Below are positions 1 through 49,338 of a stretch of DNA of 49,606 nt, piece after piece; the first letter of the stretch is position 1; each line of letters begins with the position of its first letter. The stretch lies in NCBI GenBank assembly GCA_021842405.1, contig JAKBZR010000015.1:1-49606 (forward strand), written 5' to 3'. Source of the DNA: a bacterium. Lineage in GTDB: Bacteria > Armatimonadota > Chthonomonadetes > Chthonomonadales > JAMCWF01. Position numbers and translations under genes: made by a program. The notes below the pieces were generated by a model. It was not told the DNA's origin. It saw only the letters and a list, made by a program, of their open reading frames with translations, and did not search any database.

Positions 1-903
1 CAGATTAGGCCGGTGATTGAGGAAAAGTTGGCCTTTACCTTTTGCGGCGATCATGGCGTAGTCGCCGAGGGTGTCAGCGCTTATCCGGCCGAGGTGACGC
101 CCCAGATGGTCTTTAACTTTTCCGCTGGGGGAGCCGCCATCAGTGCGCTGAGCCGCTGGGCGGGAGCAAAAACGGTGGTGGTGGATATCGGTGTGGCGGC
201 GCCGCTGGATAATTGCGACAATATCTTGCACCGAAAAGTGCGGACCGGGACCGATAACATTGCGCACGGACCAGCAATGAGCGCCGGTGAAGCGGTGGCT
301 GCGCTGGAAACCGGCATCCGCGTTTTTCAAGAGCGGTGGGGCGGTCGCCCGGCGCTCGTGGCGCTGGGCGAGATGGGCATCGCTAATACCACATCGGCCA
401 GCGCAATTACCTCGGTGATGACCGCACGCCCCCCAGCCGAGGTAACCGGGCGAGGAACCGGCGTGGTGGATGATCGCCTGGCCCATAAAATTAAGATCGT
501 CCAACAGGCGCTGGAGGTCAACCGCCCGAATCCAAAGGACGGCCTGGACGTGCTGGCAAAGGTAGGGGGCATGGAGATCGGTGGAATGGCGGGCACAATG
601 TTGGCCGCCGCTGCAAGCCGGGTTCCCATCATCATTGACGGCTTTATCTGCGGCGCCGCCGCCCTCATCGCTGATGCTTTGCAACCCCGATGCCGAGACT
701 ATATGATTGCTGGCCACTGCTCGATGGAGCCGGGCCATCGCATCCTGCTTTCTCACCTGAATTTGACGCCGATTTTGGATTTAAATATGCGGCTCGGTGA
801 GGGCAGCGGAGCAGTGCTGGCGATGCCGATCGTGGAAGCAGCCTGCCGCATATTGGCTGAGATGGCCACCTTTGAAGACGCGGGTGTATCCGAGAAGCTT
901 TAG
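1..903 (+). CDS. cobT: Nicotinate-nucleotide--dimethylbenzimidazole phosphoribosyltransferase CobT (5' partial)
   Basis: CobT transfers phosphoribose from nicotinate mononucleotide to the lower-ligand base, making the alpha-ribazole phosphate used in nucleotide-loop assembly. The frame is open from base 1, and the product (about 300 residues) is shorter than the usual 340-350, so the N-terminus lies outside the window. Family motifs seen are CGDHGVVAEGVS near the visible start, GEMGIANTTSAS, and near the C-terminus GEGSGAVLA, which holds the glutamate expected to be the catalytic base. The stop codon TAG is followed directly by the cbiB ATG, so it is the first visible gene of a six-gene cobamide operon. 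The GTG at 13 is not a credible start because the fold would lose its first strand. Confidence 0.95.
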   Translation, partial: QIRPVIEEKLAFTFCGDHGVVAEGVSAYPAEVTPQMVFNFSAGGAAISALSRWAGAKTVVVDIGVAAPLDNCDNILHRKVRTGTDNIAHGPAMSAGEAVAALETGIRVFQERWGGRPALVALGEMGIANTTSASAITSVMTARPPAEVTGRGTGVVDDRLAHKIKIVQQALEVNRPNPKDGLDVLAKVGGMEIGGMAGTMLAAAASRVPIIIDGFICGAAALIADALQPRCRDYMIAGHCSMEPGHRILLSHLNLTPILDLNMRLGEGSGAVLAMPIVEAACRILAEMATFEDAGVSEKL

Positions 904-1875
904 ATGAGCTGCGGGTTTTCTCCGTTGGAATCGGGGTTGGCGCTGGCGGCGGCCGTCGGGCTGGATATCGCCTTCGGCGAGCCGCCCAACGCCTTACATC
1001 CGGTGGCCTTGATGGGCAAGCTCATCGAGACGCTTACCCGGCAGCGCCCGCAGTTGATCAGCCCGATTTCAGATTTTCTCTACGGCCTGGTGGTTACCAT
1101 CTTTTGCGTCGGCGTCGCTTTCTGGGTGGGGTTGATCTTGCTGCGAGTTTCAGGTGGAATGGCACTGTGGGCAAAGGTTCTGCTCGATGCGATCGCGCTG
1201 AAGCCGTTCTTTGCCGTTCGCGCCCTGCCGGATGCGGCGACAAAGGTGGAAGCGGCGCTGGCGGCGGAAGATATCCACGGCGCACGGCTCAGGCTGAGAT
1301 CATTGGTCAGCCGCGATCCCGATTTACCGGAGCCGCTGATCGTTTCCGCAGTGGTGGAATCGGTCGGCGAAAACTTTTGTGATAGCGTGGTGGCCCCGAT
1401 GTTTTACTTTGCGCTGTTGGGTCTGCCTGGCGCTGCGGTTTACCGCGCGGTGAACACATTGGATGCAATGATCGGCTACCACGGAGAATACGAGTGGTAC
1501 GGTAAAGCGGCCGCGCGCCTGGACGATCTTCTTAACTGGCTGCCTGGTCGTTTGGCCGGATTGCTGCTCTGTCTGGGCGCCGCGCTGACCGCCCCGCGTG
1601 CGAAGCGATCTATGTCGGGTGCCCGCGCCTGGAAGGTGATGCGGCAACAGGCGCCCACCACCGACAGCCCGAACGCCGGTTGGAGCATGGCCGCGATGGC
1701 CGGTGCGCTGGCCGTCCGACTGGAAAAACCGGGCCATTATCGCCTGAACGGTGGACCGGACTTGCCGCCGCGCGAGTATATCCCGGCTGCGAACCGAATC
1801 TATGCCGCCTCGGTTGCGCTTTTAGTGGCGTTGCTGATTGCCGTTTTGGTAGCGGTGGGATGGGCCGGACATTGA
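904..1875 (+). CDS. cbiB: Adenosylcobinamide-phosphate synthase CbiB
   Basis: This integral membrane enzyme joins an aminopropanol-type linker (usually its phosphate) to adenosylcobyric acid, giving adenosylcobinamide phosphate. The 323-residue length is normal. Recognisable motifs are DIAFGEPPNALHPV at the N-terminus, the SRDP segment near residue 140, the VVESVGENFCDSVVAP region and the RAVNTLDAMIGY motif typical of CbiB. Hydrophobic segments lie near residues 50-80, 150-180, 210-230 and 300-320. It starts immediately after the cobT stop and overlaps the downstream aminotransferase by 16 bases, which suggests translational coupling. The linker precursor would come from the CobD-like neighbour. 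Confidence 0.95.
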   Translation: MSCGFSPLESGLALAAAVGLDIAFGEPPNALHPVALMGKLIETLTRQRPQLISPISDFLYGLVVTIFCVGVAFWVGLILLRVSGGMALWAKVLLDAIALKPFFAVRALPDAATKVEAALAAEDIHGARLRLRSLVSRDPDLPEPLIVSAVVESVGENFCDSVVAPMFYFALLGLPGAAVYRAVNTLDAMIGYHGEYEWYGKAAARLDDLLNWLPGRLAGLLLCLGAALTAPRAKRSMSGARAWKVMRQQAPTTDSPNAGWSMAAMAGALAVRLEKPGHYRLNGGPDLPPREYIPAANRIYAASVALLVALLIAVLVAVGWAGH

Positions 1876-3002
1876 GCCGCGAGTATTTACGAAAATGCAT
1901 TTCGGGAGCAAAAGCGGCGGCGCATGGCGGTCCCGACTGCGAAGAGCTGCGCCGTATGGGAATAGCGGACGATCAGGTGCTGGACTTCAGCTCCAACCTG
2001 AATCCCTATGGCGCATCTCGGTTGGTCGAGGAAGCGATGCGAAACGTTTCGATTTCGTGCTATCCGGATCGCCATTGCGTCGCTTTACGCGAGGCGCTGG
2101 CGGCGGCAAACGGTCTGGAGGCGGATAATGTATTGCCCGGCAACGGCGCATCCGAGTTGATTCATTTGATCGCACGGGCCGCGCAAGGCCCCGTCCTCAT
2201 CGCGGCCCCGACCTTTGGCGAATATCGGCATGCCGACGAGCTGGCCGGATTGACGGTTCAAGAGGTGATGGCCGAATCGCCCAATCTCGCGTTTTCGGTG
2301 GATATACTCCGCCGCGCGATTCACCGGCAGCGCCCCAGTGTCGTATTTCTATGCAACCCCAACAACCCGAGCGGGCACTATCTCGCCTTAGAAGAAGTCG
2401 GCGTGATCCTTCATACCACCCGCTCTGTGGGCGGCTTGCTGGTTCTGGATGAGGCATACGTGGATTTCGTGCCGGATCGGTGGGACAGCGTCGGCGCGCT
2501 GGGTCTGCAAGGACTCGTTATCTTACGCTCTTTGACCAAGCTCTACGGCCTGGCCGGACTTCGGCTTGGCTATATCCTGGCGAAGCCGGACCTGGTTCGG
2601 GCGCTTTCAACGGTTCAACCGCCCTGGAGCGTCAATGCGTTCGCGCAGGCGGCAGGCATTGCGGCGATGGCCGACAAGGCTCACCTGGAAAGCTCCCGAC
2701 GCGCGCTGCTGATCGAGCGAGCGCGCTTGGAATCGGCGATCGAGAATTTGGGCTATCGAACACTGCCTACCCATACCGCCTTCTTTCTGGTGCGGGTGGG
2801 AAACGCGAAAAGGATGCGTGAGAGGTTGCTTGCCCATAATCTGCTGGTTCGCGACTGTAGCTCGTTTGGTTTGCCAAATCACATCCGAATCAGCGCGCGC
2901 ACGCCGGAGGATGGAGCGCGCCTCATTCAAGCAATGGCATCTGAAAGCACCTCCGGGAATGCCTCAGTTGACGCTGAGCAGGCGCCCGGTACAAAGCATT
3001 GA
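1860..3002 (+). CDS. cobD: CobD-type PLP aminotransferase (threonine-phosphate decarboxylase / HisC-like)
   Basis: This is a fold-type I PLP enzyme of about 380 residues. In B12 operons this position is normally L-threonine-O-3-phosphate decarboxylase, which supplies aminopropanol phosphate to CbiB. Visible motifs are DFSSNLNPYG near the N-terminus, PGNGASELI, CNPNNPSG for cofactor binding, VLDEAYVDF, and RSLTKLYGLAGLRLGY with the Schiff-base lysine near residue 227. An open frame extends upstream to 1680, but that part only overlaps cbiB in another frame. ATG 1860 is chosen because it gives the family length. Distinguishing CobD from histidinol-phosphate aminotransferase by sequence alone is uncertain; the operon context favours CobD. 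Confidence 0.88.
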   Translation: MGRTLSREYLRKCISGAKAAAHGGPDCEELRRMGIADDQVLDFSSNLNPYGASRLVEEAMRNVSISCYPDRHCVALREALAAANGLEADNVLPGNGASELIHLIARAAQGPVLIAAPTFGEYRHADELAGLTVQEVMAESPNLAFSVDILRRAIHRQRPSVVFLCNPNNPSGHYLALEEVGVILHTTRSVGGLLVLDEAYVDFVPDRWDSVGALGLQGLVILRSLTKLYGLAGLRLGYILAKPDLVRALSTVQPPWSVNAFAQAAGIAAMADKAHLESSRRALLIERARLESAIENLGYRTLPTHTAFFLVRVGNAKRMRERLLAHNLLVRDCSSFGLPNHIRISARTPEDGARLIQAMASESTSGNASVDAEQAPGTKH

Positions 3003-3010
3003 GGGGTTTG

Positions 3011-3742
3011 ATGGGTGACGGGATGAACAGCCTGCGGGTGGCGTTGAGCCTGCTCACCGTGATTCCGGCGGGGAAAGTTGACTACTCGGTCGGCGCAATC
3101 GGGCGCAGTGGAAAGTGGTTTCCGGTGGTGGGGCTGCTGATCGGCTTGATCTTATGGGCGCTCGGTCATTTGATGATCGGCCATTTGCCACCGATCCTGG
3201 CCGGCGGGCTGATCGTCGCCTTCTGGGCGGCGATAACCGGCGGATTGCATCTGGATGGCCTGGCGGATTGCGGCGATGCCCTGCCGGCTGCGGTTTCGCG
3301 CGAGCGCCGCTTGGAAATTATGAAGGACCCGCGATTGGGCGCGTTCGGCACGATAGCCCTAGTGCTGTTCCTGATTTTGAAAGTCGGCGCGACGGCCTCG
3401 CTTACCGGCCCTCGTCTCTTTGCGCTCATTTTAGCGCCGGTAATCGCGCGATGGTTGAGCCTGCTGGTTGCTTTGCAGCCGACCGCTCGGCCCGACGGCA
3501 TGGGGGCCGACTTTGCCGGAGGTCTGCATCGCTGGAATCTTTTGATCGCGGCCATACTGCCACTGAGCTTGACGGTCTATGGCGGATGGCGAGCTGTAGC
3601 CGCCGTTTTAATCGCCCATCTGGTTGTATTTAGCCTGATTTATATCGCTCGATCCCGGCTGGGCGGTGTAACCGGTGATGTGCATGGGCTTGCCATCGAA
3701 ATGGGGGAACTGACCACTTTGATCGTGTATTCGGTGAAATGA
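3011..3742 (+). CDS. cobS: Adenosylcobinamide-GDP ribazoletransferase CobS
   Basis: CobS is the membrane cobalamin synthase that joins adenosylcobinamide-GDP to alpha-ribazole or its phosphate, the last step of nucleotide-loop assembly. The product is about 243 residues with several hydrophobic helices. It carries the family hallmark GGLHLDGLADCGDAL near residue 80, an acidic motif for Mg2+ and substrate, and the following RRLEIMKDPRLGAFG segment. ATG 3011 lies just after the end of cobD with a GAGGGG-like ribosome site; a TTG at 2999 in the same frame is a weaker alternative. Its stop overlaps the next start as ATGA, again indicating coupling. Confidence 0.95.
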   Translation: MGDGMNSLRVALSLLTVIPAGKVDYSVGAIGRSGKWFPVVGLLIGLILWALGHLMIGHLPPILAGGLIVAFWAAITGGLHLDGLADCGDALPAAVSRERRLEIMKDPRLGAFGTIALVLFLILKVGATASLTGPRLFALILAPVIARWLSLLVALQPTARPDGMGADFAGGLHRWNLLIAAILPLSLTVYGGWRAVAAVLIAHLVVFSLIYIARSRLGGVTGDVHGLAIEMGELTTLIVYSVK

Positions 3743-4554
3743 TCAGCAATATAGATGATTTTAAATTTTCTTTTCGCGTCGGGACCACATCCTATATCCT
3801 GCCGGATGATATCCTGGCCAACGTTCGTTTTCTGGCCGATAAAGTTCAGGACATCGAGCTGCTCTTCTTCGAGGTGGATGACGACAAAAACGTGCTGCCG
3901 CCTTCGGCAACCGTTCGAGAGCTGCAGGCGATCGCCGGTGATTACAACCTCACCTATACCGTTCACCTGCCATTGGATTCCCAACTGCCGGGAGTTCAAG
4001 GCGAGCGTTACTCCTCGACGATAAAAACAGCCAGGGTAATCAACGCGACCTCGGTTCTCAATCCATGGGCCTACATTTTACATCTGGATGGGCACCAGCT
4101 TCCGCCCGATCCGGCGCCGGATCAGTTGAAGCGCTGGCAAGACGAGTGCGTTTACGCCTTGCGGATGATCGGGCAACACACCGGTGAAGCCGGAAAGATC
4201 GCGGTGGAAAATACGGAGCACTATCCGCCGGAGTGGCTTGACCCGATCTTCTCCGGCGCCTCGTTCAGCCGCTGCGTGGATATCGGCCACTTGTGGCTGG
4301 CCGGCCTCAACCCGCTCCCTCCCCTTATCCGATCGTTACCGCGGATTCGGGTGGTGCACATTCACGGCGTGGTGGTGCGGGATCATCGGTCGCTGGATGT
4401 CATGCCGGAGAAAAACGTTGAGGCGGTGGTGCACACGCTTTTGGAAAATCGTTTCTCCGGTGTCTTGACGCTGGAAATCTTTAACGAATCGGACCTGCGG
4501 TCATCACTGGCCGTGTTGGAGAGGATAAGGAGAAGGCTATGGGACGCGGATTGA
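3739..4554 (+). CDS. cbiR: Sugar phosphate isomerase/AP endonuclease 2-type TIM barrel, probable cobamide-remodelling enzyme CbiR
   Basis: This 271-residue protein has the xylose isomerase/AP endonuclease 2 TIM-barrel pattern: TYTVHLPLD in an early strand, AVENTEHYP with a metal-ligand glutamate, [18 protein letters not shown] and LTLEIFN at the end of the barrel. These supply the His, Glu and Asp metal ligands. The gene sits between cobS and cobU, overlapping both. From established work, CbiR of Akkermansia belongs to this superfamily and cleaves the nucleotide loop of cobamides so that the lower ligand can be rebuilt. Assigning this gene as CbiR is an inference from fold and operon position; a generic sugar-phosphate isomerase is the alternative. 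Confidence 0.75.
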
Positions 4555-5081
4555 CATTGATACTGGGCGGCGCGCGCAGCGGCAAAAGCAGCCACGCCCA
4601 ACAGCTTGCCGCCGAGCGAGGGAGCTCCGTGGTCTTTGTGGCAACCGCGGAGCCGAGCGATGAGGAGATGAAGCGGCGAATCAGCCGTCATCGAACGGGG
4701 CGGCCGACCGATTGGCAGACCATCGAAGCTCCCCTTGAAGTCGCCGCCGCCCTGCGAGCGCATTCCGCCAAAGCCGACGTGGTGCTGCTGGATTGTCTCA
4801 CCCTCTTGACCAGCAACTCGATGACTTCCCTGCCGGAGCCGATCTCGGAGGAAGCGGCGGAGGAGCGAGTCGGAGCGGAGATAGATGCGCTGCTCACCGA
4901 ATATGCCGCCGGTGATGCGGAGTGGATCGTGGTATCGAATGAAGTTGGATTGGGGCTGGTGCCGCCGTATCCGCTTGGCCGACTCTACCGGGATGTGTTG
5001 GGAAGGGTAAACCAACGGATCGCAGCGGCCGCCGACCGGGTTATTTTTATGGTGGCCGGATTGCCCATCCGCATAAAATAG
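4539..5081 (+). CDS. cobU: Adenosylcobinamide kinase/adenosylcobinamide-phosphate guanylyltransferase CobU
   Basis: CobU phosphorylates adenosylcobinamide and attaches GMP, giving the GDP-activated corrinoid used by CobS. The 180-residue length matches the family. The P-loop [12 protein letters not shown] is near the N-terminus, followed by [12 protein letters not shown], the [10 protein letters not shown] segment with the histidine used for guanylylation, LLDCLTLL, and [23 protein letters not shown] 4539 overlaps the end of cbiR by 16 bases, and an AAGGAGAAGG-like ribosome site lies within that gene. It is the last gene of the compact operon; a MITE-like repeat begins six bases after its stop. 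Confidence 0.96.
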
Positions 5082-5086
5082 CGGAG

Positions 5087-5233
5087 GAGCTCAGTTTTAC
5101 GGGAATCATTGATTGAAGCATTGATCCCCTCTCCCCGCCTGCTCCTTCATACGCTGAGCCTTTGGCCGTCAGTTAGCGGGGAGGGGGTTAGGGTGGGAGG
5201 GCTGACATAAAATGAATTCCGTAAAACTAGACA
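5087..5233. mobile_element. MITE-like palindromic element, copy 1
   Basis: The left end reads gagctcagttttacgggaat and the right end is its near reverse complement (aatgaattccgtaaaact). Between them are GC-rich inverted segments (ctccccgcc and agcggggaggggg). The ends match the other copies listed in this window. There is no coding capacity. It lies directly behind cobU and upstream of the small peptide gene, so its hairpin could act as a terminator between them. Confidence 0.7.
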
Positions 5234-5356: not shown

Positions 5357-5470
5357 ATGAAGGGGAACATTAATGCAAAAGACATCATCGCGTTCCGCAA
5401 GGGATGCAAAGCGCGGGGAACCGGGCTGTCGCACTATGTCTTGCTGAGTAAAAAGACGAAGAAGGCATAA
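5357..5470 (+). CDS. cbpA: Small modified-peptide precursor, CbpA-like (37 aa)
   Basis: The gene encodes a 37-residue basic peptide with one cysteine. The N-terminal half contains AKDIIAFRKGCKARGTG and is followed by LSHYVLLSKK and a lysine-rich tail. A near-perfect ribosome binding site, aaaggaggt at 5342-5350, lies six bases before ATG 5357, which strongly supports translation. An overlapping ATG at 5353 gives only six codons. The next gene is a radical SAM/SPASM enzyme of the peptide-maturase type, and a Ni/Co transporter follows. From memory, the CbpA/CbpB pairs defined near cobalt and cobamide genes have short precursors with a single conserved Cys, and this one fits. The modification and its function are unknown. 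Confidence 0.75.
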   Translation: MKGNINAKDIIAFRKGCKARGTGLSHYVLLSKKTKKA

Positions 5471-5515
5471 TCGCCGGTCCAGATGGCGCCAAGCGTAGGC
5501 TCGGCACACTTCCGC

Positions 5516-5562
5516 CCGGCAAGCGGGGTGTTTTCGGATCCACCAAATGCTCCGCTTGCCGG
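5516..5562 (+). terminator. Strong hairpin between peptide gene and maturase gene
   Basis: An 11-bp perfect inverted repeat (ccggcaagcgg / ccgcttgccgg) encloses a 25-base loop, 45 bases after the stop of the 37-codon peptide gene. There is no following T-run, so it may act as a partial terminator or as a 3' stabilising hairpin. Either could give more peptide mRNA than maturase mRNA, a common arrangement for precursor peptides; that role is inferred. Confidence 0.55.
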
Positions 5563-5588
5563 AACATTCACTCGAACAAACGATGAAT

Positions 5589-5694
5589 GAGCTCAGTTTT
5601 ACGGGAATCATTTGCGATAACGTTGGCTGTCCCCGCCCTCGGAAGGTGTAGGGGCGAGCCTGTGGGATCGCCCAAATCCCGCAAAACCGAACCC
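5589..5694. mobile_element. MITE-like palindromic element, copy 2
   Basis: The left end gagctcagttttacgggaat repeats that of copy 1, and the right end (aaatcccgcaaaaccgaac) is its imperfect inverse. The inner part is short and diverged. It ends about 15 bases before the ribosome site of the radical SAM gene, so the peptide gene is flanked on both sides by copies of this repeat. Confidence 0.65.
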
Positions 5695-5720
5695 ATTCCA
5701 AACAACCGAGGAGGACATTT

Positions 5721-7133
5721 ATGAATAATCAAAACGGACAAAACCATCGAATTCAATCCGGTGGGAAATATACCAATACCGGCTGCGGCCCAACCTTACA
5801 GCCGATTGATATCGGACATCCGGAATACATCGGGCTGGTTGATCCCGACGCCGCTTTTTGGTCGCTGGTGAAAAAGGATAAGCTGGGATACGCTCTCACC
5901 GGTGAAGCGTTTATGGATCAATATCGCCGAAAGCGCACCGAGTTCCTATCCGAGATGGATACATTGCGATTTGGGTTGAAGCCGTCGGCCGTCTACTTTA
6001 ATCCCACCGACCGCTGCAACCTGAACTGCGGCTATTGCTACATCCCGGCAAGCCTGAGGAAGAGTGGATCTCATATGACGGAGGGGAACCTCCTCAACGC
6101 GCTGGAGACGCTGCAAGCCTACTTCAAGCGCATCCACCCCGATGAGGTCATCCCTCAAGTCATCTTCCATGGGGCGGAACCGATGCTGAATCGCGAGGCG
6201 GTTTTCGCCGGGATCGAGCGGTTCAAAGACGACTTTATTTTCGGTGTGCAAACCAACAGCACCCTGCTGGATGAATCGGCCATTGCTTTCCTGGCGTCGC
6301 ACAATGTGAGCATCGGACTGTCATTGGATGGAGTACCCGGCGGTCCCGGCGATCACACCCGAAAAACCTGGGCTGGCGAAGGAATTTCCGACAATGTCAT
6401 CGCCGCGCTGGAGCGGCTGAAAGGCTACGATCACTACAGTGTGATCTGCACCGTGACGACCCACAACATGCTGCATCTGTCTGAATTTGTCACCTTTTTG
6501 CACGGCATGGAGGTGCCGGTCTGTATGCTCAACTCGGTGCGGTGTACCTTGCCGGGCGGCCGGAGTATGAAACCGACCGATCAAGAGTTGGCGAAGCACT
6601 ACCTCGCCGCGCTTGACCGTACCGTCGAGCTTTACGAGTGGACCGGACGCAAACTGATTGTCGCGAATTTCGCCAACATATTGCTGAGCATCATGGCCCC
6701 GGCTGCCCGGCGCCTTATGTGCGACATCTCCCCCTGCGGCGGCGGAAGGTGTTTTTTCGCCATTTCGGCGCAGGGAGATATCTTTCCGTGCAGCGAGTTC
6801 ATCGGCCTTCCCGAGTTTTGCGGCGGCAACCTTTTCGACGGCGAGCTGGACGCCGCGATTGAGAGCTCCGCTTTCCGTATGGTGACCCGGCGGATGGTGG
6901 AAGATATCGAGCCTTGCCGACACTGCGCGGTTCGGCATTTCTGCGGCTCTCCCTGCCCGGCCGAAGCGCATACGATGAACGGCGGAATGACCCATACCGG
7001 CGCCTTTTGTGAGTTGTACGAGGAGCAGGCCCGATACGCTCTCCGTCAGATCGCCGATGGTAAGGAGGACGTCTACCTATGGGACGGTTGGGATGCCGAG
7101 ACGACCACCACCTTCTCGCTGTTTAATTCGTGA
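5721..7133 (+). CDS. cbpB: Radical SAM/SPASM peptide maturase, CbpB-like
   Basis: This 470-residue enzyme has the radical SAM motif CNLNCGYCY (Cys99, Cys103, Cys106) binding the SAM-cleaving 4Fe-4S cluster, followed by a barrel with FHGAEPML (the GGEP-like motif) and GLSLDGVPG. The C-terminal SPASM-type domain carries many cysteines: CDISPCGGGRCF, FPCSEF, FCGGNL, CRHC, FCGSPCPAE and a last Cys in GAFCELY, enough for auxiliary clusters. This is the architecture of peptide-modifying enzymes that install thioether or carbon-carbon links. The ribosome site gaggagga (5709-5716) precedes ATG 5721. The natural substrate is most likely the 37-residue peptide upstream. CbpB family membership is from memory of the signature and context; anaerobic sulfatase maturases are related, but no sulfatase is nearby. 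Confidence 0.82.
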   Translation: MNNQNGQNHRIQSGGKYTNTGCGPTLQPIDIGHPEYIGLVDPDAAFWSLVKKDKLGYALTGEAFMDQYRRKRTEFLSEMDTLRFGLKPSAVYFNPTDRCNLNCGYCYIPASLRKSGSHMTEGNLLNALETLQAYFKRIHPDEVIPQVIFHGAEPMLNREAVFAGIERFKDDFIFGVQTNSTLLDESAIAFLASHNVSIGLSLDGVPGGPGDHTRKTWAGEGISDNVIAALERLKGYDHYSVICTVTTHNMLHLSEFVTFLHGMEVPVCMLNSVRCTLPGGRSMKPTDQELAKHYLAALDRTVELYEWTGRKLIVANFANILLSIMAPAARRLMCDISPCGGGRCFFAISAQGDIFPCSEFIGLPEFCGGNLFDGELDAAIESSAFRMVTRRMVEDIEPCRHCAVRHFCGSPCPAEAHTMNGGMTHTGAFCELYEEQARYALRQIADGKEDVYLWDGWDAETTTTFSLFNS

Positions 7134-7205
7134 TCCGGCTCATTTCAGCGATTGTTCGGTTTTAGACGATTGAATGTTCTTCTGTAAATGCGGTAGAAAG
7201 AGGCC

Positions 7206-8234
7206 TTGTTCAGGTTGCAAAAATCACTAATGAGCGTTACCGTCCTCTTTTTGATTTTGGGGTTGGCCAATGGGATTATCTGGCTCGTCCTGTTTTTTGT
7301 CGCCGTTCATCACCCGATTTTCCTCTCTCTGGGCGTGCTGGCCTATGTTCTGGGCCTGCGCCATGCCGCCGACGCCGACCATATCGCCGCCATTGACAAT
7401 ACAACCCGCAAGCTGATGCAAGACGGGGCGCGGCCGCTGTTGGTCGGCCTGTACTTCTCAATGGGCCATTCCACCATTGTCCTTCTGCTGTCGCTGATCC
7501 TCGCTTTTACAACCTCCGCGGTAAAGGATCGCTTTCCCGGCCTGGAGATGAGCGTTAATCTGGTGGGCACCGCGATTTCGGCCGTGTTTCTGCTCTTGAT
7601 TGCCAGCTTGAACCTGGTGGTCTTCAAGGACATCTATCAAATCTTCCGTGAGATGAAGGACGCCCATCTGAGTCGCAAAGAGACCGATAAAATCGAGGAC
7701 ATGTTGCTGAAGCGCGGGCTGATGAGCCGCCTGCTGGGGAAAGCTTACAATACGGTAAAATCGGAACGACAGATGTATCCAATCGGGTTTCTGTTCGGGC
7801 TCGGCTTCGATACCGCCAGCGAGGTGGCGCTGCTTGAGATGTCGGTCCTGATGGCCAGCAAGGGGATGCCCATCGTGACGGTGCTGATTTTGCCGCTTCT
7901 TTTTGCGGCCGGTATGAGCCTGGTGGACACCCTGGATGGGGTTCTGATGCAGCGCGCCTACTCCTGGGCTTTCATCAACCCAATCCGGAAGATATATTAT
8001 AACTTAACCGTCACCGCGGTTTCGATTTTGGTCGCGCTGGGAGTGGGCGGCGTCGAGGGAATCCAGGTCATCGGACGTGAGCTCTCGCTGAAGGGTAAGT
8101 TCTGGACATCTCTCGAGAAATTGAGCTTCGAGACCCTGGGTTATTTCATCATCGGGATACTGCTTGCCAGTTGGGGTATCTCAATGATCACCTATTGGGT
8201 CGGTGGCTACGAAAGAAGAGCCGAGCGCGATTGA
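7206..8234 (+). CDS. HoxN/HupN/NixA-family nickel/cobalt transporter
   Basis: This 342-residue polytopic membrane protein carries the metal-binding signature of the NiCoT family, RHAADADHIAAIDN in the second helix (His53, Asp56, His59), then GHSTIVLLLS, GLGFDTASEVALL and GMSLVDTLDGVLM. Such permeases import Ni2+ or Co2+ with high affinity. Position after a peptide maturase and between two blocks of cobamide genes points to cobalt rather than nickel, but the sequence alone does not decide. The TTG at 7206 follows an agaaagagg ribosome site; the ATG at 7230 lacks one. The gap to the radical SAM gene is 72 bases, so co-transcription is likely. Confidence 0.9.
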   Translation: MFRLQKSLMSVTVLFLILGLANGIIWLVLFFVAVHHPIFLSLGVLAYVLGLRHAADADHIAAIDNTTRKLMQDGARPLLVGLYFSMGHSTIVLLLSLILAFTTSAVKDRFPGLEMSVNLVGTAISAVFLLLIASLNLVVFKDIYQIFREMKDAHLSRKETDKIEDMLLKRGLMSRLLGKAYNTVKSERQMYPIGFLFGLGFDTASEVALLEMSVLMASKGMPIVTVLILPLLFAAGMSLVDTLDGVLMQRAYSWAFINPIRKIYYNLTVTAVSILVALGVGGVEGIQVIGRELSLKGKFWTSLEKLSFETLGYFIIGILLASWGISMITYWVGGYERRAERD

Positions 8235-8262: not shown

Positions 8263-8413
8263 CCGCCCCCACCCTAACCCTCCCCCGTAAACGGGGGAGG
8301 GGATTAAGAGGGACTGGGGGGCAAGATAAAAGCGCCGCCGCTAAACTCCCTCTCCGCTTGCGGGGAGGGCTGGGGTGGGGTCGAACGAAAATCATTCCCG
8401 CAAAACTGAACTG
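8263..8413. mobile_element. MITE-like element, copy 3 (one terminal repeat missing)
   Basis: The element contains two GC-rich hairpins (ccctcccccgtaaacgggggaggg and ctccgcttgcggggag) and the right end cgaacgaaaatcattcccgcaaaactgaac found in other copies. The matching left end is not visible. It lies between the convergent transporter and cbiA genes. Confidence 0.65.
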
Positions 8414-8436: not shown

Positions 8437-9819
8437 TCACCGCGCCCCTTTACAGAGACCGATAAAATGCTCGATTGCGACCGGTTTCGAAGCCAGGTGA
8501 AGATGCACATAGCTGGCCAGTACCGAGCCGCTTTGGAACCCTTCACTTTCGGTCGCATTACGGCGCCACCATCGCAGCGAGTAAACCGTTTTCCAACTCG
8601 GCTTGATGAGTGGGTCGCCGATAAGCTCCGAATAGTGATACTGGTGCCCTCTCAGCACTGCGCCCCTTTCGCCCCATAACGAATCCTCATTTAGGGTGAC
8701 TTCGATATAACCCAGCGATTTCAAGCGGTTATGCATCCGGGTGGAGGCCGGTAGCAGGCCGACCATCGGGTACTGCTTGCCATCCATCGTTTCAAGCCGC
8801 TCGGCAAGATACATCAACCCGCCGCACTCGGCGTAAATCGGGCGATCGGCGGCGAATCGCCGAACCTCGCCCCGCATTCCTTGATTGGCGGAGAGGGCTT
8901 CCGCATACACCTCCGGATAGCCACCCCCAAAATAGATCGCATCCAGACCAGTCGGCAGGTGAGCATCCTCAATCGGCGAAAACCGAACCGGCTCGCATCC
9001 CCGCGTCTCGAGCTCATCGAAAAGATCTTGATAGTAAAAGTGGAAGGCCTCATCGTACGCTACCCCGATTCGGACCGGCCTTTTAGCGGGCGCCGGTTCC
9101 GGAGTAGCTGCCGGAAGCGGGGGCGCGCTCTGCGCCAACCTGATCACTTCATTGATGGCCAGATTTTGGTCAACCGCATCGGCAAATCGTTTCAGCGCCG
9201 ATTCCGGTAAATTGCGGTGGTCGGCGGTAACCAGCCCCAGATGGCGACTTTCCAATTCCGGAAAGGCGCCGTGCGAGATGCCCCCGATCAGCGGCGGCAG
9301 GTCGGCAGCCTTCAGCGATTCGGCCAACAGCTCCGCGTGGCGAGCCGAGCCGCACCGGTTGGCGATCACACCTGCGATTTTCACCCCCGACTCAAACTCG
9401 GCATATCCCTTGACAAGGGCGGCCAGGCTGCGCGCCATTCCCTGCGCGTTGGCCACCAGCAGCACCGGCGCCTGCAGCCAGCGGGCGATCTCAGCCGTGC
9501 TTCCCGCCGAAGTGGCGGCATCCGCCCCATCGAACAGCCCCATGACCCCCTCGATCACCGCCACGTCGCACGCGCCAGCGGTGCGGGCAAAAAGGCGCTC
9601 CACGTATTCGCGGCCCATCATCCAGCCGTCAAGGTTATAACACGGCCGCCCCGATGCTTGAGCCAGGTGCGAAGGATCCAAAAAATCGGGACCGATTTTG
9701 TAGGTCTGCACTTTGATGCCCCGGCGCCGAAGGGCCGCAACCAGCGCCAACGTTACCGAGGTCTTTCCGGCGCCGCTCTCGACGCCGCCGATCACGATCC
9801 GTGGGCAATCGGCCATCAT
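8437..9819 (-). CDS. cbiA: Cobyrinate a,c-diamide synthase CbiA (CobB)
   Basis: CbiA uses glutamine and ATP to amidate the a and c acetate side chains of cobyrinate or hydrogenobyrinate. The 460-residue product has an N-terminal synthetase domain with GGVESGAGKTSVTLAL as P-loop and TYKIGPDFLDPSH, a hallmark of the family. It also has a C-terminal glutaminase domain with the nucleophile cysteine in AECGGLMYLAE and the partner histidine in SYVHLHLAS. ATG at 9819 gives the usual length. It is 46 bases downstream of cobQ and on the same strand, so the two amidases probably form one transcript, converging with the upstream peptide/transporter unit. Confidence 0.96.
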   Translation of the reverse strand: MMADCPRIVIGGVESGAGKTSVTLALVAALRRRGIKVQTYKIGPDFLDPSHLAQASGRPCYNLDGWMMGREYVERLFARTAGACDVAVIEGVMGLFDGADAATSAGSTAEIARWLQAPVLLVANAQGMARSLAALVKGYAEFESGVKIAGVIANRCGSARHAELLAESLKAADLPPLIGGISHGAFPELESRHLGLVTADHRNLPESALKRFADAVDQNLAINEVIRLAQSAPPLPAATPEPAPAKRPVRIGVAYDEAFHFYYQDLFDELETRGCEPVRFSPIEDAHLPTGLDAIYFGGGYPEVYAEALSANQGMRGEVRRFAADRPIYAECGGLMYLAERLETMDGKQYPMVGLLPASTRMHNRLKSLGYIEVTLNEDSLWGERGAVLRGHQYHYSELIGDPLIKPSWKTVYSLRWWRRNATESEGFQSGSVLASYVHLHLASKPVAIEHFIGLCKGAR

Positions 9820-9865: not shown

Positions 9866-11467
9866 TCATCTCAGTCCGATCAGCCGGTATATTTCATCCA
9901 TTTGAAAGCTTTGCCGAACGATATCGGCCAGACGATCCAGGGCCGGTTCGTGGTCGTAATTCACCAGTACGCGACCGATCGGTTGAAGTCCCTTTTTAAC
10001 CCTCAACCGATCAATAAACCATCGCCGGTACTCATCGTCGTCAAAAAGGCCATGCAGATAGGTGCCCCAAAGCAATCCATCCTCCGTGCCGGCGCCGATG
10101 ACCTCACCATCCTCCCGGAGAACGGCCGGCACTGCACCGCCGCCTTCTGTTCGCCCGTGATGAATCTCGTACCCCTTTATCGCCAGACCGGATTGAAGGT
10201 GCTTTGCGGAGGCCCGCATCAAGGTCTTGTCGGGAGAGAGGATTGTGGTAATCGGCAGCAAGCCCAGGCCGCTCACCGTACATCCCTCCGATTCAATTCG
10301 GTGGGGATCGTCAATCCGTTCGCCGATGAGCTGAAAGCCGCCGCAAATGCCGATCAGCTCCTTTTTCCCGCCCCGGAACAGTTCCGTTATTTTGACATCA
10401 AGGCTGGTTTTGCGCAGATATTCCAGGTCGGCGATCACGTTTTTGCTTCCTGGCAAAATGACGACATCTGGATCGCCGAAATCCTGCGGCGTTCGGATGA
10501 TTTTAAGGTACACGTCCGGCTCGATACGAAAGGCATCGAAATCGGTGAAGTTCGAGATGTGTGGGAGATCAATGACCGCAATCTCAACGTGCTCCCCCGT
10601 CGGTGGTGTTTGGTCAAGATTTCCGTTCTTAAACGCGACCGAGTCCTCCTCGGGCAATCCGAGGTTCCGAATATAGGGTACAATCCCCAACGTGGGGCGA
10701 CCGGTGTGCCGCAGAGTGTACTCCAGCGCCGGATCCAGCAGCGATTTGATGCCTCGAAAGCGGTTGATGATAAAACCGGCAATCAACGAGCGCTCCCATT
10801 TCTCCAACACCTCCATCGTGCCGATAAAGGAGGCAAAAACGCCGCCCGGCTCGATATTACCCACCAACAAAACCGGACTTTCGGCATACCGTGCCGTTTT
10901 CATGTTGGCGAGATCGCGATCCTTCAGATTGACTTCGGCGGGGCTGCCGGCCCCTTCGATAACCATCACCTCGTTTTCAGCCGCAAGCGAATCGTAGGCA
11001 TCCTTTATAAAGGAAAACGCTTTGGACTTGTATTGATTGTACTCCTCGAAGTCCACCGTAAAGACCGGCTTACCCATCACGATGGCCTGCGATCCGGTTT
11101 CGCTGCAGGGTTTGAGCAGGATTGGGTTCATCCGCACATCGGGATCCAACCGGCACGCCTGTGCCTGAACCACCTGCGCTCTCCCCATCTCGCCGCCATC
11201 CCGGGTGACGTAGGAGTTCAGCGACATATTTTGCGCCTTAAAGGGGGCGACGCGGTACCCGTCTTGCAGCAGAATACGACACATCGCGGCCGCCAGCACG
11301 CTCTTGCCGGCATTGGAGCTGGTTCCTTGAAACATGATGGCTAGCGCCTTTCGCCTCTTGATCGGCTGCGATGGGTGGCCGAGCGCCGATTTCAGCGCGC
11401 TGGAGAGGCGCTCATTCGGGTTGATATTGTTTTGTTGCGGTCGGGAGGCGCTTTTAGAAGGTCTCAT
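9866..11467 (-). CDS. cobQ: Cobyric acid synthase CobQ (CbiP)
   Basis: CobQ amidates side chains b, d, e and g of adenosylcobyrinate diamide. The P-loop domain reads MFQGTSSNAGKSVLAAA, followed by PFKAQNMSLNSYV, a strong CobQ signature. The glutaminase domain has its nucleophile in GICGGFQLIG and the catalytic histidine in YLHGLFDD. The predicted protein has 533 residues, with about 40 residues of polar sequence before the usual family start; either this extension is real or translation begins at an internal codon. Upstream of ATG 11467 a tgtaaaat box lies only six bases away, so a leaderless start is possible but unproven. It probably heads a cobQ-cbiA unit. Confidence 0.95.
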   Translation of the reverse strand: MRPSKSASRPQQNNINPNERLSSALKSALGHPSQPIKRRKALAIMFQGTSSNAGKSVLAAAMCRILLQDGYRVAPFKAQNMSLNSYVTRDGGEMGRAQVVQAQACRLDPDVRMNPILLKPCSETGSQAIVMGKPVFTVDFEEYNQYKSKAFSFIKDAYDSLAAENEVMVIEGAGSPAEVNLKDRDLANMKTARYAESPVLLVGNIEPGGVFASFIGTMEVLEKWERSLIAGFIINRFRGIKSLLDPALEYTLRHTGRPTLGIVPYIRNLGLPEEDSVAFKNGNLDQTPPTGEHVEIAVIDLPHISNFTDFDAFRIEPDVYLKIIRTPQDFGDPDVVILPGSKNVIADLEYLRKTSLDVKITELFRGGKKELIGICGGFQLIGERIDDPHRIESEGCTVSGLGLLPITTILSPDKTLMRASAKHLQSGLAIKGYEIHHGRTEGGGAVPAVLREDGEVIGAGTEDGLLWGTYLHGLFDDDEYRRWFIDRLRVKKGLQPIGRVLVNYDHEPALDRLADIVRQSFQMDEIYRLIGLR

Positions 11468-11571: not shown

Positions 11572-11714
11572 AACAGTTCAGGTTTGCGGGAATGGTTTTC
11601 GTTCGACCCCACCCCAGCCCTCCCCGCAAGCGGTGTATAGACTTGGGGAGGGTGTTGATTATTGCTATAAGGGTAAAGCCTGCTGCCTAAATTACCCAGA
11701 GAACTGAACTCTTT
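11572..11714. mobile_element. MITE-like palindromic element, copy 4
   Basis: The left end acagttcaggtttgcgggaa with the adjoining ttttcgttcgaccccacccc matches other copies. The right end is a diverged form, taaattacccagagaactga, that is also seen inverted at 23331 and 29019. It occupies much of the 348-base gap between divergent cobQ and moxR. The remainder of the gap shows no gene. Confidence 0.68.
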
Positions 11715-11815: not shown

Positions 11816-12784
11816 ATGTCGGACTCAAGCGAAATTGCCGATCACATTTCAGCGGTTGTTCAAGCGGTAGAGACCGCCATTTTGGGCAAGCGGGGCTCCG
11901 TTGAGTTGGCGCTGGCGGTTCTCCTATCCGGCGGTCACCTGCTGATTGAAGATATCCCCGGGGTGGGTAAGACCACCCTCGCGAAGGCTCTTTCGCGCGC
12001 GCTGGGTTGCGAGTTTAAGCGAATTCAATTTACACCGGACCTGCTGCCATCCGATGTAACCGGCAGCGCAGTTTATAATCAAAAGACGGGTGATTTCGAT
12101 TTCCGTCGCGGGCCGGTTTTCGCCAATGTGGTGCTGGCCGACGAGATAAATCGGGCAACCCCCAAGACCCAATCCAGCCTTCTGGAGTGTATGGAGGAGC
12201 GGCAGGTCACCTCCGATGGAATTACAAGGCCGCTGCCGGCCCCGTTTTTTGTCATCGCAACGCAAAACAATGTGGAGATGAGGGGCACCTATCCGCTGCC
12301 GGAAGCGCAACTGGATCGCTTCAGCGCGCGGGTTTCAATCGGGTATCCGTCTTCACCGGATGAGATGCGTATCCTGCGTAATGAATCCCGCAGCCACGCG
12401 ATTGACCGCATTCAGTCGGTTATCAGTGCCGCCGATTTGCTGGATTTGCAAAAATCGGTACGGGAGGTTTTTGTGGAAGATACGGTGGCTCAGTATCTAT
12501 TGCAGATAGTAGGCGCAACCCGAACCATGCCGGATGTAGCGCTGGGCTGCAGCCCGCGTGCGTCACTCCATTTGATGCTGGTTTGTCAGGCGATGGCGAT
12601 TATCCGGAATCGCAGCTTCGTCATTCCGGAGGATATAAAAACGCTGGCGGTTCCGGTGCTGGCTCACCGCATCATGCTTAAGCCGGAATACCGCATGCGC
12701 GGAATCACGGCGGAACAGTGCATTTTTAATGCCTTACAAGATACTCCGGTTCCGGTTGAGGCGCGACGGGCGGCAGCGGTTTAA
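11816..12784 (+). CDS. MoxR-family AAA+ ATPase
   Basis: This 322-residue AAA+ protein has Walker A in GVGKTTLAKAL near residue 46, Walker B in VLADEINRATPKTQ, sensor 1 in VIATQNNVEMRGTYPLPEAQLDRF and an arginine-rich C-terminal lid domain. MoxR ATPases act as chaperone-like factors, usually with the DUF58 and transglutaminase proteins encoded beside them, as here. The first codon ATG 11816 has a ggagg 15 or more bases upstream, a little far. The gene begins a four-gene plus-strand operon ending in holA. Confidence 0.95.
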   Translation: MSDSSEIADHISAVVQAVETAILGKRGSVELALAVLLSGGHLLIEDIPGVGKTTLAKALSRALGCEFKRIQFTPDLLPSDVTGSAVYNQKTGDFDFRRGPVFANVVLADEINRATPKTQSSLLECMEERQVTSDGITRPLPAPFFVIATQNNVEMRGTYPLPEAQLDRFSARVSIGYPSSPDEMRILRNESRSHAIDRIQSVISAADLLDLQKSVREVFVEDTVAQYLLQIVGATRTMPDVALGCSPRASLHLMLVCQAMAIIRNRSFVIPEDIKTLAVPVLAHRIMLKPEYRMRGITAEQCIFNALQDTPVPVEARRAAAV

Positions 12785-12804
12785 CCGCAAAAGGGAGGGA
12801 GCCG

Positions 12805-14049
12805 GTGCGCCGCTATAAGAGAACCGCCATATCGGTGGCGGCCGTTTTTATGCTGATCGTGGCCATCACGCTGAATAACGCCTCGCTTTATCTGATGGCC
12901 AGCGTTCTTTTTGTGCTCCCAATCACCAGCTTGCTACTTGGATTTTGGCTGCGCCGCGATCTTAAGTTCCGGCGTATGGTTCATTCTCCGGGATGGAGCG
13001 GTGAAGTGGCGGATTTCATGGTTGAGCTGTTCAACGGCGGCCTGATGCCCAGGCCCCGTATCGAGCTAACCGATCGTCTTCCAGCCTGGATAGAGCCGAT
13101 CCAAAAGCCACCTCTCATCACCCATCTGCCGGGTCGCGGCCATACTACCGTGACTTATTCGGTGAATTTGCTAAAGCGCGGCATCTACCCCCTGAGCGGC
13201 TACAAAGTGGGGGTTTCTGATCCGCTGGGACTATTTACTTTTACCGGGTTTGTCGGCGCACCCGCTGAAATCATAGTCTATCCGACCCCTGAAAATCTGC
13301 CCGACCTCCAGTTAAGCGGGGGTGATCGTTTTGGTTACCAAGACAGCGCTCGTGTAACCCTCCATGGGCATGGCGTGGATCCGGATGGCGTTCGCGAATA
13401 TCGGCCGGGCGATCCGTTACGCCGGATTCACTGGAAAACAACCGCTCGGACGGGGAACCTTTCGGTGATCGAATTTGATGAGATGCGCACGGCCAACCTT
13501 TGTCTGGCGCTGGATCTTACGCCGGGAAGTGACGTGGGTGAAGGTCTGGAAACCACCTTGGAATACCTCGTTCGTGTCGCCGCTTCGCTGACGAAAATGG
13601 CGGTAGACCTCGGATCTGAGGTGTCCCTCATTACTAACGGGCCTCCGGAATGGCAGGTGATGGCCAATCGAGGGGATGACCAGCTTCACCGCATTCTCCG
13701 CGTGCTGGCAGCCGTTCAAGCAACGGGTGACACTCCACTGGAGGCAATCCTTAGCCGGTACCTCAATATCACCGGCGGTGAACTGTCCCTCTTCGTGCTG
13801 ACCTCGTCGGCAAACGGGCGAACGATGGGTTTCCTCCACTCCTACCGAAAATCGGGCGGGCAGGTCGTCATCATCTACGCCGATCCAAGTGATTTCGCCC
13901 CATCGCCCGCAGTGGGAAAGCCGAATTCGACCGCCACCGATCCGATGATCATGGATGCGGGTGCGTTGGTGCTCCGATTATGCCGCGCGCCCGGTAAGCC
14001 CATCCAAATGGAGCCCATCAGCAATGGCTACGCCGTCGTCAAACAATGA
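12805..14049 (+). CDS. DUF58 domain-containing membrane-anchored protein
   Basis: The 414-residue protein begins with two hydrophobic helices (about residues 8-24 and 30-48), then a periplasmic or cytosolic beta-rich segment and the DUF58 core. The core signature is VREYRPGDPLRRIHWKTTARTG around residues 195-215, followed by a vWA-like fold (LCLALDLTPGSD). These proteins are partners of MoxR ATPases. The GTG start at 12805 follows aaaagggaggg, a good ribosome site. The gene starts 20 bases after moxR and overlaps the transglutaminase gene by 26 bases. Confidence 0.9.
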   Translation: MRRYKRTAISVAAVFMLIVAITLNNASLYLMASVLFVLPITSLLLGFWLRRDLKFRRMVHSPGWSGEVADFMVELFNGGLMPRPRIELTDRLPAWIEPIQKPPLITHLPGRGHTTVTYSVNLLKRGIYPLSGYKVGVSDPLGLFTFTGFVGAPAEIIVYPTPENLPDLQLSGGDRFGYQDSARVTLHGHGVDPDGVREYRPGDPLRRIHWKTTARTGNLSVIEFDEMRTANLCLALDLTPGSDVGEGLETTLEYLVRVAASLTKMAVDLGSEVSLITNGPPEWQVMANRGDDQLHRILRVLAAVQATGDTPLEAILSRYLNITGGELSLFVLTSSANGRTMGFLHSYRKSGGQVVIIYADPSDFAPSPAVGKPNSTATDPMIMDAGALVLRLCRAPGKPIQMEPISNGYAVVKQ

Positions 14050-29128: not shown

Positions 29129-29240
29129 ATGTGTTGCATGGTCTTTGATATGTTACTTTAGGAGTCACCCTGCTAGTGAATGCAACTCGTAGGATGGGCT
29201 GATCACTCATTTCTCAATTTAACCCACAGTCAGCGGAGCC

Positions 29241-29350
29241 ACGAGCGTGAGCGAGTGGACGCGACGAGCGTGAGCGAGTGGACGCGACGAGCGTGAGCGA
29301 GTGGACGCGACGAGCGTGAGCGAGTGGACGCGACGAGCGTGAGCGAGTGG
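29241..29350. repeat. Tandem repeat, 23-bp unit, five copies
   Basis: Units of acgagcgtgagcgagtgg plus acgcg recur at 29241, 29264, 29287, 29310 and 29333 with no visible change, the last being incomplete. A reverse-complement fragment (gctcgctcacgctcg) lies at 29470-29485, so the array and that fragment could pair. It does not resemble a CRISPR array because there are no variable spacers. Confidence 0.85.
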
Positions 29351-29540
29351 AGCGGTATAGCATTAGCACGTTGGCGATCGTGTTCTGCTGCGCGCCCCCG
29401 TTAACCGGTCGGGTGATGACGTGGAGAAAGAGAATGGGATTATCGTTAGGCATAAACAGTCAGTGTGTACGCTCGCTCACGCTCGCGGCTCAGAGGTGGC
29501 TCGCAGGCTGGTAGATTGATTCCCCGATAACATTGCAGTA

Positions 29541-29593
29541 CTAGGGGAATGCTGGTGGGGGCGAACGAAAATCATTCCCGCAAAACTGAACTC
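29541..29593. mobile_element. MITE-like element, copy 6, right part
   Basis: The end gggcgaacgaaaatcattcccgcaaaactgaactc matches the right ends of copy 3 and others. It follows the second copy of the 28-bp direct repeat that ends at 29540, consistent with an element split by an insertion carrying the tandem repeats. Confidence 0.6.
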
Positions 29594-37437: not shown

Positions 37438-37478
37438 GAGTTCAGCTTTGTGGAAATGATTCCCGTAAAACTGAACTA
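37438..37478. mobile_element. MITE-like element, copy 7 (minimal palindrome)
   Basis: gagttcagctttgtggaaatgattcccgtaaaactgaacta is just the two terminal repeats of the family fused together, forming a 41-bp near-palindrome with no internal part. It lies 95 bases upstream of the peroxiredoxin gene. Confidence 0.75.
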
Positions 37479-49146: not shown

Positions 49147-49338
49147 GAGTTCAGTTTTATGGGAGTGATTTTCGTTCGCCCCCACCCCAGCCCTCCCCGC
49201 AGGCGGGGAGGGAGTTTAGCGGCGGTGCTTTTATCTTGCCCCCCCAGTCCCTCTTAATCCCCTCCCCCGTTTACGGGGGAGGGTTAGGGTGGGGGTGCAT
49301 CCAATATGGTCGTAAATGATCCCCACAGAACTGAACTC
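49147..49338. mobile_element. MITE-like palindromic element, copy 9 (full length)
   Basis: The most complete copy, 192 bp: left end gagttcagttttatgggagt with ttcgttcgcccccaccccag, two GC-rich hairpins (ctccccgcaggcggggag and ctcccccgtttacgggggag), and right end atgatccccacagaactgaactc. It lies between the kinase gene and the partial propeller gene. Confidence 0.8.

Follow-up and report, generated by a model that had tools for sequence, protein, structure and literature searches.

The peptide–maturase pair cbpA–cbpB: its link to cobalamin and its possible role in cobalt supply

Why does a gene of 37 codons lie in a cobamide gene region, upstream of a radical S-adenosylmethionine (SAM) enzyme? 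We address this question for a 49,606-nt contig (JAKBZR010000015.1, assembly GCA_021842405.1) of a bacterium from the armatimonadotal class Chthonomonadetes; the entire contig is referred to below as the window. The short gene and the enzyme gene are cbpA and cbpB, as the initial annotation had recognized: both products exceed the curated NCBIfam cut-offs in hidden Markov model (HMM) searches, and all the elements that it had listed for this locus were found in place (Table 1). The link of cbpAB to B12 is strong. Our preferred reading, to which we give a probability of about 0.42, is that cbpA–cbpB is a B12-repressed system whose product, an intracellular peptide with a single crosslink, would aid the supply of cobalt for corrin synthesis; its chemistry and cobalt-handling role we infer.

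Association of cbpAB with cobalamin and corrin synthesis

Relatives of the pair were collected by scanning genome contigs with an alignment of two sequences, which yielded 48 loci, and were complemented with the record of plasmid pHY1 of Methylovirgula sp. HY1, where cbpAB are annotated under those names. The sample of the window's own phylum (291 genomes) contained no CbpB over the cut-off other than that of the window's genome and was therefore not usable for alignment. The 49 relatives represent at least 11 phyla and their CbpB sequences are 49–67% identical to that of the window. The pair is found in Chloroflexota, Planctomycetota, Verrucomicrobiota, Actinomycetota, Pseudomonadota (including Rhodoblastus, Magnetospirillum and Magnetococcales), Thermodesulfobacteriota, Myxococcota, Omnitrophota, Lentisphaerota, Elusimicrobiota, Acidobacteriota and Armatimonadetes. 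In the tree, alphaproteobacteria and most actinobacteria were grouped and the other phyla were mixed, with 17 label changes against a minimum of 10. Such a tree would fit lateral spread without proving it, many of its branches being weak and most of its rows coming from binned genomes. Viral contigs were dropped as candidate carriers of CbpB, their only matches (24%) being to other radical SAM proteins. On pHY1 (locus L041, 11804–16753), cbpAB lies 1.8 kb from pqqADE with no cobamide genes nearby; two peptide–maturase systems are found on one plasmid.

Searched with the Rfam model RF00174, the source genomes gave 143 cobalamin riboswitch matches. In 35 of the 49 relatives, a riboswitch on the same strand precedes the cbpB match by 223–636 nt and lies directly ahead of cbpA, whereas random scatter would be expected to place about 0.013 in this position. 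The landmarks of the riboswitch class, CCCGCCGCTGT, GCCACT, GGGAAGG and AGCCAGAAGACCTGC, are present. Same-strand cobalamin riboswitches also stand at the operon head in L042, L044, L054 and L088, where they were found by cmscan at the mapped coordinates, which served as a check of the mapping, and in L050 and L083, where they were placed by coordinate mapping. This brings the number of relatives with a riboswitch ahead of cbpAB or its operon to 41 of 49. The mapping for L046 fell outside the locus and was counted as false. In L046, L052, L055, L061 and the window, the contig ends before the riboswitch region becomes visible. The window, where no cobalamin riboswitch was found even at E 5, starts inside cobT, so that the head of its operon is missing. 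Cobalamin riboswitches usually repress when cobamide is present. Elsewhere in the window's genome (G000:C170:43844-43987; L099 5845–5988), a 55-bit cobalamin riboswitch lies upstream of a gene for a prepilin-like N-methylation-domain protein (L099 6171–6926), an unexpected target.

Analysis of the gene neighbourhoods showed nine loci in which cbpAB is within a cob/cbi operon or adjoins a cobalt importer. The pair in a cob operon usually has genes for cobalt import (CbiMQO, NiCoT) or for the cobaltochelatase CbiX next to it. Thus, L042 has the order riboswitch–CbiM–CbiQ–CbiO–cbpA–cbpB–CbiX–CbiC–CbiD, L044 and L088 have CbiC–cbpAB–CbiX–CbiM, L054 and L055 have cbpAB–CbiM, L052 has cbpB–CbiM, and the window has cbpAB–NiCoT. 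Exceptions among the cob-operon loci are L050, where cbpAB follows CbiC, and L083, where BluB precedes it and CbiE/T follow. The pair of alphaproteobacteria and actinobacteria mostly has a riboswitch before it but no conserved partner gene, which makes the minimal system one of two genes; the alphaproteobacterial open reading frames (ORFs) of about 120 codons that follow cbpB share no family. No exporter, protease, TonB receptor or immunity gene is conserved beside cbpAB in the relatives surveyed.

CbiC, used here as a marker of de novo corrin synthesis, was found in 42 of the 49 CbpB genomes tested, and several of the seven negative ones may be incomplete bins. Within the window's phylum, CbiC is encoded by only three of the 291 genomes, the window's genome among them, so that the chance of the sole CbpB genome being CbiC-positive is about 3/291. 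Comparison of CbpB genomes with the phylum gave a Fisher p of 8e-44 for CbiC, a value that overstates the strength of the association because the samples are not phylogenetically matched. The window's genome has CbiX, CbiC, CbiD and further corrin genes on another contig, behind a cobalamin riboswitch of their own. Among the CbpB genomes, 36 of 49 encode CbiX, 29 CbiM, 22 a member of the CobN family, 17 a BluB over the cut-off and 10 CobW. Since none of these is universal, cbpAB follows corrin synthesis itself and no particular importer, chelatase or lower ligand. A specific pairing of cbpAB with CbiM, CobN, CbiX or CobW was rejected on this ground, as was a role in the supply of 5,6-dimethylbenzimidazole (DMB) by BluB as the main link. 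The idea of CbpAB as a simple substitute for CobW was rejected because both coexist in alphaproteobacteria. The connection to cobalt or corrinoid use that the initial annotation had drawn is thus backed by three lines of evidence: the riboswitches, the importer and chelatase neighbours in cob operons, and the co-occurrence with CbiC.

The peptide, its maturase and their likely chemistry

The CbpA of the window, MKGNINAKDIIAFRKGCKARGTGLSHYVLLSKKTKKA, has a single Cys, and the ribosome site AAAGGAGGTG lies shortly before the ATG of its gene. Both features had been pointed out for this 37-codon ORF and both hold; the single Cys is also conserved in the relatives. We checked whether the peptide is conserved beside homologous maturases, and the attempted refutation failed: cbpB is preceded by cbpA in 48 of 50 loci, including L046 and L052, which the contig start truncates, and in the other two, L080 and L081 from Thermodesulfobacteriota, cbpA is unlinked and encoded elsewhere in the genome, with the sequence MKKVKVFSYRRVCKG(A/V)NGTGLSHY(L/I)LLTP(K/S)K. 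CbpA is therefore present in every CbpB genome examined. The distance from the stop of cbpA to the cbpB match is 0–120 nt in most relatives; the gap in the window is 250 nt.

The core of CbpA, C-x3-G-[TVIAM]-G-L-S-H-[YF] (in summary form RKxCx3GTGLSHY), is nearly invariant. Its residues G, G, L, S and H are found in 47 of 47 sequences, the Cys and Arg are effectively universal, and the last position is Tyr or Phe. The search pattern, G.GLSH[YF], was preset, and every locus with sequence matched it, so that this conservation is real. The residue five positions after the Cys is Thr in 38 of 47 sequences and Val, Ile, Ala or Met in the others. The leader follows the pattern (D)(V/I)IAxR(K/R)x, and most sequences have a basic tail. 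A core so fixed suggests that the product is the same in all hosts, as expected for a cofactor, a ligand or a signal and not for a weapon, and its conservation is unlike that of ribosomally synthesized and post-translationally modified peptides (RiPPs) used in warfare. The two unlinked copies of cbpA have neighbours of note. In the Thermodesulfobacteriaceae genome (L097), the gene (7110–7205) comes just after one for an unclassified 398-aa protein (5791–6987) that reads as radical SAM/SPASM-like, possibly a second maturase; in L096 it follows a gene resembling an archaeal-type S-adenosylmethionine synthetase.

CbpB has the radical SAM motif CNLNCGYC, whose C99, C103 and C106 are conserved in all 49 homologues, as are the SPASM cysteines C339, C357, C399, C408, C412 and C430; C402 is found in 48 of 49. 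An eighth SPASM cysteine, C334, is likewise present in 49 of 49. The next-best NCBIfam model is that of PapB (NF047865), at 121.6 bits against a cut-off of 340. The SCIFF maturase model TIGR03974 gives 89.1 bits against a cut-off of 425, and CbpB stays below the cut-offs of the ranthipeptide maturase models. CteB is the best match in the PDB by sequence and, for an AlphaFold model with a mean predicted local distance difference test (pLDDT) score of 87.9, also by fold E-value (5wgg/5why), followed by anSMEcpe with a template modelling (TM) score of 0.82 by target. The modelled N-terminal region (residues ∼ 27–85, beta-beta-beta-alpha-alpha) would occupy the position of the RiPP recognition element (RRE) that binds the leader in CteB. 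Cluster ligation cannot be judged from this model because its pLDDT falls below 50 locally, at C334–C341. The conserved Cys of CbpA with Thr, Val, Ile, Ala or Met at i+5 is compatible with a thioether of the ranthipeptide type.

Possible roles of the mature peptide

The preferred reading can be set out as a sequence of predicted steps. At low cobamide, the riboswitch ahead of the pair or its operon would permit expression, if it represses as is usual for its class. The N-terminal region of CbpB would bind the CbpA leader, (V/I)IAxRK, and the enzyme, with its radical SAM cluster and two auxiliary Fe–S clusters, would introduce one modification into the core C-x3-G-T-G-L-S-H-Y. The single most likely modification would be a thioether that joins the invariant Cys to the side chain of the fifth residue after it, as in SCIFF ranthipeptides. 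The constrained peptide, with its invariant His and Ser (and the Cys, depending on the modification), might then handle Co(II) inside the cell, on its way from the importer (NiCoT or CbiMNQO) to the metalation of the corrin (early by CbiX or late by CobN), and so keep cobalt available for corrin synthesis at low B12. Class II cobaltochelatases have been described as largely unselective for metal (PMC7689651), so that a delivery aid would make sense. A broader version, in which CbpA matured by CbpB is a riboswitch-controlled peptide carrier of cobalt or insertion factor that serves both cobalt-early and cobalt-late pathways and has spread laterally over many phyla, seems to us somewhat doubtful.

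Several observations weigh against the cobalt-supply reading. In the available sequence, loci L041, L059, L080 and L081 lack a riboswitch. Most alphaproteobacteria and actinobacteria have no conserved gene after cbpB, and the tie to cobalt transport therefore comes from the cob-operon lineages only; nor is there a single cobalt route among the hosts, as the counts for CbiM, CobN, CbiX and CobW illustrate. Both the modification of CbpA, for which the initial annotation had suggested one thioether or carbon link, and metal binding by the mature peptide are predictions, and a Cys spent in a thioether would be a weaker cobalt ligand. Three CbpAs have Ala or Met in place of the Thr, and the Cys–Thr spacing is one residue longer in L078, L096 and L097, which would strain a strict Cys–Thr link. 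Finally, the substrate Cys of CteB has been proposed to sit at an open iron site of one of the auxiliary clusters (PMC8326336). C334 of CbpB aligns with a Cys of anSMEcpe that CteB lacks, and auxiliary cluster I may be fully ligated through it, contrary to a CteB-type ligation of the substrate.

If C334 does occupy the open iron site, the chemistry of CbpB may be closer to that of anSME. CbpB could make a change other than a thioether, either a C–C or ether crosslink at His, Tyr or Ser or an anSME-type conversion of Ser or Cys to formylglycine, and we rate this at not far below even odds. This alternative bears on the chemistry alone and could go together with any of the roles discussed here. 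The rank of anSMEcpe among the best fold matches and the shared extra SPASM Cys point in this direction, and the Cys is no better conserved than the Ser, His and Tyr/Phe of the core. Against this, the closest model after CbpB's own is that of PapB, a thioether-forming ranthipeptide maturase, CteB leads in both PDB comparisons, the Cys is invariant, and two replacements of Tyr by Phe argue against a link through the Tyr oxygen.

Turning to the role, the mature CbpA might, instead of binding cobalt, serve a step of cobamide synthesis as a small cofactor or a biosynthetic precursor, in the manner of PqqA and PQQ (pyrroloquinoline quinone). Cobalt reduction or ring contraction might use it as a redox carrier, or a building block of the cobamide might be derived from it. 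The near-invariant core without a dedicated exporter or immunity gene would suit such a product, riboswitch control and co-occurrence with CbiC would suit any synthesis step, and a step shared by the two pathways is possible, since cbpAB accompanies cobalt-early gene sets (CbiX) as well as cobalt-late ones (CobN). Nevertheless, cobalt importers and CbiX, rather than any one late enzyme, make up most of the neighbours in cob operons, cbpAB has no conserved peptidase gene at its side, and BluB, in 17 of 49 genomes, does not indicate a lower-ligand role through DMB. We consider a cofactor unlikely, though worth keeping in view. Cobalt supply, itself a proposal, is favoured over it on account of the cobalt-transport and chelatase neighbours and the reported low selectivity of class II chelatases.

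A secreted cobaltophore that scavenges extracellular cobalt and returns through a riboswitch-controlled receptor appears improbable. Uptake genes are typically controlled by such riboswitches, the invariant His and Cys could bind metal, and in L049 a protein of the periplasmic metal- or corrinoid-binding type is encoded right after cbpB. However, CbpA has no signal sequence, the hosts are both Gram-negative and actinobacterial, and the relatives surveyed have no exporter, protease or TonB receptor conserved next to cbpAB. Similarly little credence is due to a B12-sparing response, in which cbpAB would support an enzyme used in the absence of B12, like riboswitch-controlled metE, and be tied to B12 by its regulation only. 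Cobalamin riboswitches also control B12-independent isoenzymes, and in many hosts cbpAB is alone behind its own riboswitch; yet at nine loci the pair belongs to a cob/cbi operon or adjoins a cobalt importer, and the 42 CbiC-positive hosts are likely de novo corrin makers, whereas a sparing gene would be expected to be commoner in B12 auxotrophs. That the 37-codon ORF is spurious and the enzyme alone real, an idea favoured by its shortness only, is refuted by its score above the TIGR04164 cut-off, which shows it to be no chance ORF, and by its conservation in every CbpB genome examined.

If the cobalt-supply reading is correct, CbpA would be a RiPP whose job is to supply metal to a cofactor pathway, an addition to the known tasks of RiPPs, and it would help to explain how cobalt is chosen over nickel or iron at largely unselective class II chelatases. 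The riboswitches and the co-occurrence with corrin synthesis turn a vague cobalt link into predictions testable in cultivable bacteria.

The window locus and comparison with known systems

The genes before cbpA are on the same strand, in the order cobT–cbiB–cobD–cobS–cbiR–cobU (Table 1). The initial annotation had placed cobU before the pair and cbiA/cobQ after it, and this order stands, but cbiA and cobQ are on the opposite strand, convergent with the cbp–NiCoT genes. The true start of cobD is probably further inside than the listed TTG. The transporter scores below the cut-off of the narrower NicT model (358 vs 450 bits), and either Ni or Co may be its preferred metal.

Table 1. Genes of the cbpAB locus in the window, with HMM scores and model cut-offs.
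Gene and product	Position	Strand	Evidence and remarks
cobT	13..903	+	5' part missing; TIGR03160, 401.3 bits, match from model position 44
cbiB, adenosylcobinamide-phosphate synthase	904..1875	+	TIGR00380, 237.2 bits (cut-off 165.9)
cobD, threonine-phosphate decarboxylase	1680..3002	+	TIGR01140, 293.8 bits (cut-off 290.55)
cobS, adenosylcobinamide-GDP ribazoletransferase	2999..3742	+	TIGR00317, 147 bits (cut-off 110)
cbiR, cobamide-remodelling phosphodiesterase	3739..4554	+	NF041277, 261.5 bits (cut-off 105)
cobU, adenosylcobinamide kinase/guanylyltransferase	4539..5081	+	NF004469, 194.5 bits (cut-off 161)
cbpA, 37-aa precursor peptide	5357..5470	+	TIGR04164 (cobo_pep), 45.1 bits (cut-off 35), E 5.1e-12; strong Shine–Dalgarno site
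cbpB, 470-aa radical SAM/SPASM peptide maturase	5721..7133	+	TIGR04163, 686.7 bits (cut-off 375); PF04055 and PF13186
NiCoT, HoxN/HupN/NixA-type nickel/cobalt permease, 342 aa	7206..8234	+	TTG start; TIGR00802, 361.4 bits (cut-off 333.05); PF03824, E 5e-94
cbiA/cobB, cobyrinic acid a,c-diamide synthase	8437..9819	-	NF002204, 494.5 bits
cobQ, cobyric acid synthase	9866..11467	-	NF001989, 596.7 bits

The cbiR gene (3739–4554) adjoins cobU, and the window's genome has no BluB over the cut-off; the lower ligand of this organism may come from salvage or another route. Downstream of cobQ (11816–16252), genes for a MoxR-type ATPase, a DUF58-like and a transglutaminase-like protein, as read from their translations, follow in a row. 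A dispersed repeat family around AGTTCAGTTTTACGGGAATCATT is found on both strands at 5087–5110, 5589–5612, 8391–8408, 11574–11597, 29571–29588, 37438–37473 and 49147–49170 (seven matches in the window vs 0.05 expected). Its members often come with CCCCACCC...CCCTCCCC stretches and are seemingly intergenic, and two exact 24-nt copies flank cbpA. A tandem array of the 23-nt repeat GCGACGAGCGTGAGCGAGTGGAC occupies positions 29215–29352.

The window pair, adjacent and over both equivalog cut-offs, does not differ in kind from the TIGR04164/TIGR04163 family and is a new member of this named, experimentally uncharacterised family. The short name of TIGR04164, cobo_pep, suggests that the authors of the family already saw a link to cobalt or cobamide; what is new here is the riboswitch and co-occurrence evidence. 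The product and role had been considered uncharacterised, and indeed no published product or role was found for the family. We found no paper that names TIGR04163 or TIGR04164, or that combines RiPPs, cobalamin riboswitches and radical SAM enzymes, in a search that left most subscription papers outside; among papers with both a cobalamin riboswitch and radical SAM, none appears from its title and abstract to concern cbpAB.

Like PqqA–PqqE and mycofactocin, cbpAB combines a peptide of conserved core with a SPASM enzyme and is argued to yield the same small product in all hosts. It differs from these systems in having no conserved partner of the PqqD or peptidase type, and PqqE is a distant fold match of CbpB (rank 26). 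The anSMEcpe enzyme resembles CbpB in its fold and in the SPASM Cys aligned with C334, but CbpB has an additional N-terminal region of ∼ 90 residues and a dedicated peptide substrate, and no sulfatase was found beside cbpB in the neighbours examined. SCIFF/CteB and PapB likewise involve radical SAM enzymes with SPASM domains, and the spacing of five between Cys and acceptor in CbpA is that reported for SCIFF (Cys32–Thr37), although for CteA the link was assigned to Thr34 in later work (PMC8326336). CbpA differs in having one Cys instead of six, and CbpB in its extra conserved SPASM Cys and in scores far below the cut-offs of the models for those enzymes; moreover, its relatives are under B12 control and are not clostridial. 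The role proposed for CbpAB is closest to that of CobW, a GTP-dependent cobalt chaperone for CobNST that has been proposed to supply Co(II) for corrin synthesis (PMC7689651); CobW is an unrelated protein, over its cut-off in 10 of the 49 CbpB genomes, where it coexists with CbpAB.

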